From Nitrososphaeraceae archaeon (GTDB lineage Archaea; Thermoproteota; Nitrososphaeria; Nitrososphaerales; Nitrososphaeraceae): 64,000 bases of DNA. The notes beneath the pieces are model-generated. The model worked only from the letters and a program-made list of their open reading frames with translations. It was not told the origin of the DNA and made no database searches. Within the stretch, counting starts at the first letter, position 1, and every line of letters starts with the position of its first letter. Below, piece after piece: positions 3,857 through 20,641 of the stretch. The stretch is taken from assembly GCA_031316115.1 (NCBI GenBank), contig JALDRC010000008.1, positions 62,001-126,000 of the forward strand, written 5' to 3'. Position numbers and translations under genes: made by a program.

Positions 3857-5923
3857 CTAACCTAGGATAAAAATACTTCCGGTGGCAGTGTTAGATACAT
3901 AAATGTTATCGTTGTTAGAATTGAATTCTATCCCAGTAAGATTATTATCATTATTAGATACATTAATAGTATCAATCACTGTATTAAGAAATCCATCAAT
4001 AACTGAAACTGTTCCATTTATTGAGTTTGTAATATAAATATCGCCATCATATTCATTATATGTTATCCCTATAGGTCTATGACCAGTAGAAACGGTTTCA
4101 ACAACCTTATTTGTTGTTCCATTTACAATAGCTACCGTATCTGATCCAGTGTTCACTACATACAAATAATTGTTAACTGGATTATAAATTATAGACGAAG
4201 GAGCTATTCCACCTGTAGAAATTACGTCTACCAAGGCTTTTGTTGTGCTATTAATTACTGAAACAGTATCTAATCCCCTATTAGTAACATACAGGTTACC
4301 ATTATCGTAATTATATGCAATTCCAGAAGGACTGAAAAATTTTCCTGTCATTTGACTTATAATATCTGTTATAATATTGGAAGTGCCATTTATTATAATT
4401 ACTGTATTCGTTCCACTGTTTGTAGCATAAATTGTATTATTAAATGGATTTATTGCTATTCCTGAAAGACCTGTTCCCAAGAAATTACCAATATTAATTG
4501 AGTCAGATAATAAATTAGTAGTAGTATTAATTATTGATATCACATCTGAATTAGAATTTGTAACAAAAATTAAGTCATTAGCTGAATTGTAAATAATTGC
4601 GTTAGGATTATTACCTGCAGGTATAATTGAATCAAAACTATTATTTGTAGTATTTATGACTAAAATTGAGCCAGGCTTATTAAGAATTGCAGAATTTGTA
4701 ACATAAAGCAAATTATTATTTGAGTTAAATGCCAGTCCATAAGGTGAGCTAAACCCAGATATTGTTCCTATTACAGAGAGTTGTGATTGTGGCGTAATTA
4801 CAGGTTGTACTATATTTACTTCATTCGTTATAATACAAACTTTTGCTTGACCTGATTTTATGTTCCCATCACATCCATTTGAATAAGTTGCTGAGTACCC
4901 TAGTGGACCTTTTTCTGTTACGCTATATCTACCAGGATCAAGGGTTACAGTAATTCCACTTCCTGATCTGCCAGGAAATGATTTAGGTGATGGATCGTTT
5001 CCATTTACCTTGATTGTAAATGCAGAAGATTTTAATTTTACAACCGAGTCATTATCATTATAGGAATTAACGACATCTTTTATAACTATCAGTTGTGCAG
5101 ACTGATCTTTAGGTTGAAAAACATTTGTTATAGTGCATGTAATTTTCTGGCCTGGACTCATATTACCTAGACAACCGCTCGAATAGTCAGCATTGTATTC
5201 TGAAGGACCAGTTTCAGTAACAGAGTAAGCACCTTTTTTTAAATTCACATTCACACCGGTTGAACTTCCAGGAAAAGATGATGGCTGCGGAGCTTTCCCA
5301 TTCACTGTAATAGTAAAATCAGAAGGACCTCTAGACCCTCCTCCATCGTTAACGACTTTTTTCACAACTTTTAATGTTCCTGTGATAACAGGGGTACTAT
5401 AATCATAGGTAATAGTACAGGTTTTTGTTTGTCCAGGATTTATCGTTCCAGAACATGAACTAGATTTACTTACAGTATAATCAGATGATGTACTTTCGCT
5501 AACGCTGTATTTTCCTTGTTCTAGTTTTACAATTGTACCTTCAGAATCTCCAGGAAATGATGATGGATTAGGATTATTACCTTCTACTTGTATTGTAAAA
5601 TCTGATGGATTCTTTTTACCACCTCCTTCGTTGTTTACTTGTGTAACTACGGTCAATTCACTAGGTAATGGTTTTAAAAATCCATTCTCTGTTTCTCCGT
5701 TTTGAATTTTTGAATTGTCAGAAAATGATGAAGAAGAATTTTCCTTTATTTTTTTATTTAGTTTTCCTTCCGATGGCAGAGAATCTGAAAATTCGGAAAA
5801 TTTTTCAAGTTTATCATGAGAAATGCCGTAAGCGTTAAGAACTCCTGATAGTGAAACTAAAAAAAATGATAATTTTAGCAAAAATATCTTGCTTGGAAGC
5901 GTTGAAGAATTCTTGAATATCAA
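3857..5923 (-). CDS. Large surface protein: three prealbumin-like repeats plus YVTN beta-propeller
   Basis: A 688-residue protein starting at TTG. An N-terminal hydrophobic segment (about residues 11-33) is signal-like. After a Ser/Lys/Glu-rich linker come three repeats of about 90 residues (roughly 90-180, 185-270 and 275-370). Each has a Pro-x-x-Phe-Pro-Gly turn, a Tyr-Ser-Val-(Ser/Thr)-Glu strand and a conserved Cys pair about 12-15 residues apart. These resemble prealbumin-like surface repeats. The C-terminal half (about 380-688) is six to seven propeller blades with the Tyr-Val-(Thr/Val)-Asn signature, each about 42 residues. Together this indicates an exported adhesion or matrix-type protein; no catalytic residues are seen. 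It is transcribed toward the epimerase gene, with a 217-bp gap between the two ends. Confidence 0.75.
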   Translation of the reverse strand: MIFKNSSTLPSKIFLLKLSFFLVSLSGVLNAYGISHDKLEKFSEFSDSLPSEGKLNKKIKENSSSSFSDNSKIQNGETENGFLKPLPSELTVVTQVNNEGGGKKNPSDFTIQVEGNNPNPSSFPGDSEGTIVKLEQGKYSVSESTSSDYTVSKSSSCSGTINPGQTKTCTITYDYSTPVITGTLKVVKKVVNDGGGSRGPSDFTITVNGKAPQPSSFPGSSTGVNVNLKKGAYSVTETGPSEYNADYSSGCLGNMSPGQKITCTITNVFQPKDQSAQLIVIKDVVNSYNDNDSVVKLKSSAFTIKVNGNDPSPKSFPGRSGSGITVTLDPGRYSVTEKGPLGYSATYSNGCDGNIKSGQAKVCIITNEVNIVQPVITPQSQLSVIGTISGFSSPYGLAFNSNNNLLYVTNSAILNKPGSILVINTTNNSFDSIIPAGNNPNAIIYNSANDLIFVTNSNSDVISIINTTTNLLSDSINIGNFLGTGLSGIAINPFNNTIYATNSGTNTVIIINGTSNIITDIISQMTGKFFSPSGIAYNYDNGNLYVTNRGLDTVSVINSTTKALVDVISTGGIAPSSIIYNPVNNYLYVVNTGSDTVAIVNGTTNKVVETVSTGHRPIGITYNEYDGDIYITNSINGTVSVIDGFLNTVIDTINVSNNDNNLTGIEFNSNNDNIYVSNTATGSIFILG

Positions 5924-7062: not shown

Positions 7063-8562
7063 TTGGTATTCTTATCTGATCTTGATTTAATGAAAGATAT
7101 TAAAGAAAGTGATCAAGATTTATCCTTCTTTAATCCTCTTGCTCAACCTATATCTAGATGGTATGAATTTCATAAAAGGATTAGGTTATTTCCCTGGTGG
7201 CTACGGTATAATTTAGGATCTGGAAGAGAAGTAAAATTAAAGAATAGAATTATCGAACTTGGAATGGAATTTGGAATTCCTAGTCCTTGGATGAATAAAA
7301 TCATAAGACATGCTATTGCTGAATTTTCTAAGAAGGGTTTAGGATTTGACTATTATGGATATCATAATATTTATCATGAATTAGAAGCTACATATTTTAC
7401 ACTACTAGCAGCAAAAAAGCATTACTCAGATAAAAATTTCAATTTTACAGATATTAAATATTTATTTTTAGCAGCATTATTTCATGATTTTGATCCGTTG
7501 AAACGATTCGATAAACCTAATGAAGAAGAAGTGGAATGGTTCATAAGAAAAGATAATAAAATTAAAAATTTTATTAAAGAAGGAGAATTAAATATTGAAA
7601 TATTAATAGCGCTCATTTACCGAACTGCATATCCATTTAGAGATAATATTGCTAGACATGCTATTGAGAGAATGAATCAATTATTTTCAAAAGCTGGGAT
7701 ATCGGATGATGATAAAAAGACACGGAAACATTATCATGATCTTGGCTGGTTTCTGTCTGTTTCTGAACGTGTAGCTGGTTATGCATTAGGTAGCTTTGAT
7801 CGTGCTATGGAACTTGCCAGACTCAATGCCCATGGTTTAGGATGGCATCCATCCTTAATAAACAAAGAATCTGTCAAATACTTCAGTTTACTAAAGGAAG
7901 AAAAAGAAATGCTTGATAAAGTATTGTATTGTGTATCTAAAAAATACCAACAAAATTTTCTTGAAAATATAGCAAAATTCAAAGAAGGTTGGACAAAGGA
8001 GGTTGAAATAAAAACATTGTTGAGAAATAATGAGATAAGTTTAGTACCATTTATAGAAAGAAATAATGAAAAAATTGATGTAAATACATTAGATAGAATT
8101 ATAGAAATTAAGGATGGATTAGATATTTCATCTCTTGCAAGTAATAAAAAAAAGTTTGTAAAATCCATAAAAGATTCAAATTGTATTCTCATTACATTGA
8201 GAGTAAAAGAAAAAGAGAACAAGGTTGTTGGTTTTGCAAAAGGAGGAGCATTAGAACAATATAGGTTACGTAGAGGAACATATGATGAAAATTTGGGTGA
8301 AAATAATACTACATTTATAGAGCCGATATATATTCAGTCTGGTTATTGGGGAGAAAAAGGGGGTCACATTCTTAGATTACAATTTTTAAACGAAGCAAAA
8401 AAACGTGGATATAAGTTTGTCACGGGATATGTACATCGTGATGTTCTTACACGCAGGATTGAAAAGGGAGAGCCTATAAAAATAGTGCAAAAGTACGATC
8501 CCGATAAGCTAGATTATTACAGAACACATCTTGATCTGTTTAATTATAATTTGTTCATCTAA
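7063..8562 (+). CDS. HD/PDE-like phosphohydrolase fused to a GNAT-like domain
   Basis: A 499-residue protein. The N-terminal half carries an HD-superfamily signature: Tyr-His-Asn-x-x-His at about residues 107-112, followed about 40 residues on by Ala-Ala-Leu-Phe-His-Asp-Phe-Asp (about 144-151). The His-Asn-x-x-His plus His-Asp-x-Asp arrangement resembles class I cyclic-nucleotide phosphodiesterases more than generic HD proteins. The C-terminal part (about 365-499) reads as a GNAT-like fold: a Val-Val-Gly-Phe-Ala strand, an acidic central strand, a Gly-Glu-Lys-Gly-Gly loop where acetyl-CoA would bind, and a final Glu-Ala-x-x-Arg-Gly-Tyr helix/strand. A second messenger or acylation role is an inference. 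Start TTG at 7063 follows a G-rich tract; ATG 7090 is an alternative. It stands alone. Confidence 0.65.
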   Translation: MVFLSDLDLMKDIKESDQDLSFFNPLAQPISRWYEFHKRIRLFPWWLRYNLGSGREVKLKNRIIELGMEFGIPSPWMNKIIRHAIAEFSKKGLGFDYYGYHNIYHELEATYFTLLAAKKHYSDKNFNFTDIKYLFLAALFHDFDPLKRFDKPNEEEVEWFIRKDNKIKNFIKEGELNIEILIALIYRTAYPFRDNIARHAIERMNQLFSKAGISDDDKKTRKHYHDLGWFLSVSERVAGYALGSFDRAMELARLNAHGLGWHPSLINKESVKYFSLLKEEKEMLDKVLYCVSKKYQQNFLENIAKFKEGWTKEVEIKTLLRNNEISLVPFIERNNEKIDVNTLDRIIEIKDGLDISSLASNKKKFVKSIKDSNCILITLRVKEKENKVVGFAKGGALEQYRLRRGTYDENLGENNTTFIEPIYIQSGYWGEKGGHILRLQFLNEAKKRGYKFVTGYVHRDVLTRRIEKGEPIKIVQKYDPDKLDYYRTHLDLFNYNLFI

Positions 8563-19408: not shown

Positions 19409-20641
19409 TTGATAATTAATAGATATAGTATTTTGAACTTAATTTTGCTAGGTGTTTTGTTTTCTTTAATATTATCTAGCAATAGTATCTTTAACAGAAA
19501 TTCTATTAATCAGGAATATAAATTTATGAATCCTAGTTTAAGTTACAAATATGCATACGGTGCGATATTCCCTGATAATGAGGGGAGTTCATTTGATTAT
19601 GTTTTCGATCCATCTGAATATGTAGATGATTTTAATGGTAAAGACGTGGAAGATTATATAGATGAAAAATTGGATTCACAAATAACAGAAGAGAATGAGA
19701 ACATTGGAACTACAAAAGATGGTGTTATTAATAAAAAAGAAGTTAATGACAATGCAATTTCTTCATCAATGGACAATTATGATTTTGAAAAGAAAAGATC
19801 AAACAATATGGATTTCAATTTTGTAGCAGTTGGGGATTGGGATTGTACTTCAGATACTAAAGCTACCGTAAAAAATATTTTAAAACAAGATCCTGAACTA
19901 GTATTAGCTTTAGGTGATCTTTCATACAACGGTAAGGCTAAATGCTGGCTAAAATTAATACAACCATTTGTAGATAAAACTCAGATTGTTTTTGGAAATC
20001 ATGAAGTAGAATCTTCCAAAATATTAAAAGATTATATGAATTATTTTGGCCTAGAAAGACAATATTATTCTTTTAACTACAAGAATATTCATTTTATCGC
20101 ACTTTCTACAGAAGTTCCTTATGAGGAGGGGTCGACACAATACAAAGCCATAGAAAAGGATCTTCAGAAATATTCAAATGATCCATCAATCGATTGGATA
20201 GTAGCTTTTTACCATAGACAAGCATATAGCTCTGGGGGAGGTCCAGATGATGAATCCGAATTCAGAGAAACCTATCATCCGTTATTTGATAAATATAAAG
20301 TCGATCTAGCCCTACAGGGACATTTGCATGCTTACGAAAGATTATTTCCTATAATTTTTAATCACGATCGGAATAGCAAACCATTTGTTGCTGATCCAAA
20401 TAGTAACTATTATCAAAATCCGGAAGGAACTATTTTCATTACTGCTGGTACTGGCGGCGCCCATGATATGGACCTGGCTTCACCCAAATATTACTCTGCA
20501 AATGGGATTGATGGAGAATTTGGTATTTTGAATATATCTGTGGAAAATAATGGTAATGTACTTAGAGGATATTTCATAGGGAACGACGGAAATGAGGTAT
20601 TTGATGAATTTGAAATCATAAAGAACAAGAGTCAGGAGTAA
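19409..20641 (+). CDS. Secreted calcineurin-like metallophosphoesterase (purple acid phosphatase-like)
   Basis: 410 residues with a signal-like segment (residues 7-25) and an acidic linker to about residue 130. The catalytic domain has the metal-binding motifs in order: Gly-Asp-Trp-Asp, Gly-Asp-Leu-Ser-Tyr-Asn, Gly-Asn-His-Glu, Phe-Tyr-His-Arg and Gly-His-Leu-His-Ala-Tyr-Glu-Arg. This is the pattern of purple acid phosphatase-type enzymes with a dinuclear metal centre. It should act outside the cell, releasing phosphate from esters. A shorter paralogue at 34521-36197 is interrupted by an IS. Start is TTG 19409. The gene follows tRNA-Arg by about 280 bp. Confidence 0.85.
   Translation: MIINRYSILNLILLGVLFSLILSSNSIFNRNSINQEYKFMNPSLSYKYAYGAIFPDNEGSSFDYVFDPSEYVDDFNGKDVEDYIDEKLDSQITEENENIGTTKDGVINKKEVNDNAISSSMDNYDFEKKRSNNMDFNFVAVGDWDCTSDTKATVKNILKQDPELVLALGDLSYNGKAKCWLKLIQPFVDKTQIVFGNHEVESSKILKDYMNYFGLERQYYSFNYKNIHFIALSTEVPYEEGSTQYKAIEKDLQKYSNDPSIDWIVAFYHRQAYSSGGGPDDESEFRETYHPLFDKYKVDLALQGHLHAYERLFPIIFNHDRNSKPFVADPNSNYYQNPEGTIFITAGTGGAHDMDLASPKYYSANGIDGEFGILNISVENNGNVLRGYFIGNDGNEVFDEFEIIKNKSQE

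Follow-up and report, generated by a model that had tools for sequence, protein, structure and literature searches.

A gene in the window, the whole 64,000 nucleotide stretch of contig JALDRC010000008.1 that was analysed, encodes a protein in which a predicted class I phosphodiesterase (PDE)-like domain is followed by a domain with a GNAT fold. The fusion is not a one-off but a conserved protein of ammonia-oxidising archaea, which are widespread nitrifiers, and the residues of its putative metal site are invariant. A function linked to cyclic nucleotides is close to evenly poised between right and wrong, leaning if anything towards right. The features of the gene and its product are listed in Table 1.

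Table 1. Features of the fusion gene and its predicted product (window positions).
Feature	Position	Strand	Basis or remark
Complete gene, 499 aa, TTG start	7063..8562	+	ORF list; homologues with 41-60% identity, aligned almost end to end
Class I PDE-like all-helical domain, residues 24-325 (predicted)	7132..8037	+	AlphaFold2 model, Foldseek, weak profiles
HNIYH motif, with a putative general acid (H101) and a putative metal ligand (H105)	7363..7377	+	Both His invariant
HDFDP motif: H141, D142 putative metal ligands; D144, P145 invariant	7483..7497	+	Alignments
RTAYPF motif: R187, T188, P191 invariant	7621..7638	+	Alignments
E235-R236: putative site of the fourth metal ligand (D or E in every sequence), then invariant R	7765..7770	+	Alignments
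GNAT-fold domain, residues 326-499 (predicted)	8038..8559	+	PF00583 over cut-off; Foldseek; beta/alpha order in model
YWGEKGGH loop at CoA-binding P-loop position, non-canonical (Y-W-G-x-x-G-G-[HSR])	8344..8367	+	Motif comparison
DYYR (D484-R487), invariant, last GNAT strand	8512..8523	+	Alignments, model

Gene, host and distribution of the fusion

The open reading frame, with a TTG start and 499 codons, lies exactly where the initial annotation placed it, and it almost certainly encodes a real, stand-alone protein with the PDE-like and GNAT architecture. A frame or assembly artefact is ruled out, as many genomes, some of them on a single contig, share the same fusion. An origin from a plasmid or virus is likewise ruled out, with no relatives in phages, plasmids or viral contigs. 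Neither an NCBIfam search with the protein nor a search of PDB sequences with it as a single query returned a match. The genome carrying the gene encodes an archaeal AmoA and its named close relatives in the close-relative scan are Nitrososphaera MAGs, and the host is therefore an ammonia-oxidising archaeon. The gene does not lie in a conserved operon; no neighbour is kept across families, and the surroundings thus give no operon clue to a pathway. Elsewhere in the window, a gene at 3857-5923 on the reverse strand predicts a 688 aa product, likely a surface protein, in which NHL/YncE beta-propeller repeats come after three SpaA_2 prealbumin-like domains.

The initial annotation knew of no such domain combination and proposed searching for it elsewhere; it was found in about 130 of the 161 sampled genomes of the ammonia-oxidising families, all four such families being represented, and in none of the approximately 89 genomes sampled from the rest of the order. 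By family, it is present in 43 of 70 genomes of f1, to which the window belongs, 7 of 7 in f2, 2 of 2 in f3 and 78 of 82 in f9, these four being the families that bear AmoA. Shorter orthologues, of about 440 aa, occur in f9. The counts come from a sample of 250 genomes of the order and were made by hand, so that family totals are approximate and some non-matching genomes are not individually listed. The fusion is kept intact across the four families, and in a phylum-wide sample of 300 genomes every match for it lies within the order. Extra copies with in-frame stops (G031:C96 and G404:C149) are apparent pseudogenes beside intact copies.

The gene is present in a single copy in its genome, and a search of that genome gives only one further match, which is partial and falls on the PDE-like portion of a protein of about 820 aa. 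This paralogue (L002, G000:C17, match at 19501; also L030 and L031) carries a second PDE-like HN..HD domain, and was seen in f1 alone. Its N-terminal part looks membrane-spanning by eye and its C-terminal part weakly resembles Methyltransf_4, exceeding the cut-off in L031. Genomes of f1 that are without the fusion usually have the membrane paralogue, and hence still a PDE-like domain.

The N-terminal PDE-like domain

The HN-x-x-H and H-D-x-D motifs, which the initial annotation had recognised as having the spacing of class I cyclic-nucleotide PDEs, are located at residues 101-105 and 141-144, 40 residues apart. Across 53 sequences compared, the spacing ranges from 38 to 47 and the motif residues are invariant in all 53, the exception being N102, which is T in one genus. 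The pair arises in only 8 of 200,000 composition-preserving shuffles of the N-terminal half and, together with the full conservation, this rules out a chance origin. Residues H101, H105, H141, D142, D144, R187 and R236 are invariant both in an alignment of 28 members (41-60% identity) and in the wider set of 53, and position 235 is always D or E. In class I PDEs a general-acid His works alongside four primary metal ligands, and by analogy the conserved residues would reproduce this pattern. Neither of the refuting observations named in the initial annotation emerged: a GNAT fold is predicted for the C-terminal half, and the putative metal-site His and Asp are invariant in a domain modelled as a PDE fold.

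When modelled alone with AlphaFold2, the domain has a pLDDT of 90.2 and a pTM of 0.89, and class I PDEs account for all 50 of the PDB matches listed by Foldseek, including PDE5, PDE1, PDE9, PDE2, PDE8, kinetoplastid PDEB1 and RhoPDE. The TM score is about 0.5 over 270-350 columns with 12-16% identity. The best E-value is modest (5.6e-4) and the rmsd high (about 7 Å), which marks the domain as a distant relative. Modelled at full length (pLDDT 84.6, pTM 0.79), the protein has PDB fold matches to the GNATs RimI, PaiA and GCN5 and to PDE5A. The structure predictions thus agree with the initial annotation for both halves.

The Pfam PDEase_I (PF00233) match in the window protein falls exactly on the HNxxH-HDxD segment but scores 9.6-11.4 bits against a gathering cut-off of 24.8, and no hit over the cut-off was obtained in the 61 genomes searched. 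Among 38 family members, 32 match PDEase_I weakly, and a sequence profile built from the domain finds PDE5 with an E-value of 0.0098, covering the HNxxH-HD segment only. From sequence alone the PDE call is weak; it is the predicted fold and the family-wide evidence that support it. HDxxHxGxxN, which we take to be the PROSITE-type class I PDE signature, is found in none of the 53 sequences, where HDxDP stands in place of HDxDH, and the second-site His is replaced by Pro in all aligned members. At the position expected for the purine-clamp Gln, placed from the QxxF spacing rather than by structural superposition, 37 of 38 members have R or K and only the window protein has Q. The N-terminal half fails two defining sequence tests, and its place among the class I PDEs is no closer than that of a divergent relative. 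With the signature missing and the purine-clamp Gln apparently so, the domain may have another nucleotide substrate, or may sense without hydrolysis.

In the first case the domain would be an HD-type nucleotidase or pyrophosphohydrolase whose substrate is a non-cyclic nucleotide (a 5'-deoxynucleotidase or (d)NTPase, for instance), and the protein a housekeeping enzyme, not a signalling one, whose GNAT half acetylates or senses something in metabolism. The HD profile is matched by 24 of the 38 members and a YfbR-like 5'-deoxynucleotidase profile by 5 (best 7.8e-4), the purine-clamp Gln is not conserved at its presumed position, and HD proteins of the AtCN-PDE1/YpgQ kind act as pyrophosphohydrolases in bacteria but as a cGMP PDE in plants (PMC6692503). 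However, the predicted fold is of the large class I PDE type, neither YfbR nor YpgQ is among the best 50 PDB matches listed for the N-terminal model, and HNxxH is a general-acid motif of the PDE type. An HD hydrolase of this kind is considered rather unlikely.

The C-terminal GNAT domain

Membership of the GNAT fold is clear for the C-terminal half, which the initial annotation had described as acetyltransferase-like. PF00583 is matched at residues 377-453 with 22.2 bits against a cut-off of 20.7, and Foldseek assigns a probability of 1.00 to RimI, PaiA and GCN5 in the PDB. A family profile of the GNAT half found no match among PDB sequences, and a search of a viral fold library gave only generic acyltransferases as its top matches. 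Among the positions checked, G395, E398, G434, R438, D484 and Y485 are invariant, as are E420 and R487 in the 28-member alignment. In one genus (g6; L020, L022, L023, L025, L027) a tandem duplication of about 20 aa lies inside the GNAT half, before the CoA loop.

The canonical CoA loop [QR]xxGx[GA] is missing from the C-terminal half in 50 of the 53 sequences, which have YWGxxGG[HSR] instead, and with a non-canonical loop the domain might be inactive. It could then be a pseudo-acyltransferase, sensing acyl-CoA and adjusting the hydrolase to pass carbon or energy status on to the messenger, and other Pat enzymes do have catalytically inactive acetyl-CoA-binding regulatory domains (PMC8556138). 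This arrangement is judged improbable, since the GNAT half retains invariant acids and the DYYR motif, as expected for catalysis, and some family members score well to PF00583 (8e-8).

Cyclic-nucleotide context, proposed function and known systems

Class III cyclase domains are present in about 160 of the 161 genomes of the fusion-bearing families, and the window's genome has 11, among them one fused with a cupredoxin-like domain (L083), another with a receiver (L084) and a third with a KaiC-like ATPase (L090). Cyclases without the fusion protein occur in some families of the order that do not oxidise ammonia. In L083 (1402-2502 of that locus, reverse strand; G000:C14:329984-330484), the cyclase follows a cupredoxin-like copper-binding domain that is sub-threshold (E 0.0013). 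By eye it keeps the Asp residues that bind metal in cyclases and the N/R pair of the transition state, and it is possibly a copper-sensing cyclase in an ammonia oxidiser.

Across the window's genome and 40 relatives, no c-di-AMP synthase (DAC) was found, and a c-di-AMP hydrolase is rejected on that basis. A RelA/SpoT synthase domain occurs in only 2 of these 41 genomes, the window's own not being one of them, and a (p)ppGpp hydrolase is rejected on this count; the suggestion of the initial annotation that (p)ppGpp might be the messenger is weakened accordingly. The window's genome also has no CYTH (class IV-like) cyclase and no CRP-type cNMP-binding domain (PF00027), the latter detected by the same search in 10 of 14 control genomes. 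With cyclases abundant, DAC absent, RelA/SpoT rare and no CRP-type receptor, cyclic mononucleotides are the best candidate ligand, and the fusion protein is the best candidate for their receptor or hydrolase among those found here. Class III cyclases and CpdA-type PDE annotations have been reported in Thaumarchaeota (PMC9289680). Nothing was found in the open-access literature on a class I PDE, a cyclic-nucleotide receptor or a PDE-GNAT fusion in ammonia-oxidising archaea. The link between a nucleotide second messenger and acetylation that had been proposed from the outset is plausible, and is strengthened by the near-universal class III cyclases, though it is still one that we infer.

The reading put forward here, with doubt slightly outweighing confidence, is that the fusion is a soluble cyclic-nucleotide-responsive acyltransferase. 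H105, H141, D142 and D/E235 would form a metal centre, with H101 as the proton donor, at which the PDE-like domain would bind, and most likely hydrolyse, a 3',5'-cyclic nucleotide. The occupied site would control the GNAT domain, which would transfer acetyl, or a different acyl group, from CoA to a protein or small molecule, and hydrolysis of the cyclic nucleotide would reset this gating. In this way the protein would read, then erase, the signal from the class III cyclases of the cell. The gating is modelled on type III (ligand-gated) GNATs, and the predicted architecture, an N-terminal small-molecule domain followed by a C-terminal GNAT, is of that type. That one protein would act as receptor, phosphodiesterase and effector acetyltransferase, so that a single molecule reads and erases the cyclic nucleotide and turns its signal into protein acylation, is a more tentative proposal.

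A domain with lost or reduced catalysis could instead serve as a pure cyclic-nucleotide receptor that gates the GNAT, taking the place of the missing CRP-type receptors. Loss of the PROSITE signature, the second-site Pro in all members, the absence of PF00027 from the window's genome and the type III GNAT precedent (PMC8556138) are all consistent with this. However, in 53 sequences none of the four primary metal-ligand positions has been lost, nor has the general acid, which would be unusual for a dead enzyme, and a pure receptor is given little likelihood. The fusion is a concrete candidate for both a cyclic-nucleotide receptor and a class I PDE of ammonia oxidisers, conserved across widespread nitrifiers, in which acetylation is predicted to be linked directly to a cyclic nucleotide. 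The class I PDE fold is best known in eukaryotes, and the fusion would extend it to archaea.

Several known systems resemble parts of the fusion. Class I PDEs (PF00233; PDE5, PDE9, PDE2) have in common with it the predicted helical fold, the HNxxH and HD motifs and a late acidic ligand. The fusion differs from them in having HDxDP rather than HDxDH, in lacking a conserved purine-clamp Gln where one would be expected, in scoring below the Pfam cut-off, and in being archaeal and joined to a GNAT. The HD hydrolases YfbR, YpgQ/YedJ and AtCN-PDE1 share an HD metal site and weak profile matches with it, but have no GNAT and are not in the best 50 PDB fold matches listed. RimI, PaiA and GCN5 (PF00583) share the predicted fold and Pfam match of the C-terminal half, whereas the fusion has a non-canonical CoA loop, a PDE-like partner domain and a family profile with no PDB sequence match. 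The mycobacterial cAMP-Pat proteins (MtPat Rv0998 and MsPat MSMEG_5458), which are type III GNATs, likewise have an N-terminal nucleotide-sensing domain followed by a C-terminal GNAT, and in these cAMP bound to the N-terminal domain relieves autoinhibition and switches the GNAT on (PMC8556138). However, their sensor is a CRP/PKA-type cAMP-binding domain without a hydrolase, whereas the archaeal fusion has a predicted class I PDE-like fold with a conserved putative metal site.
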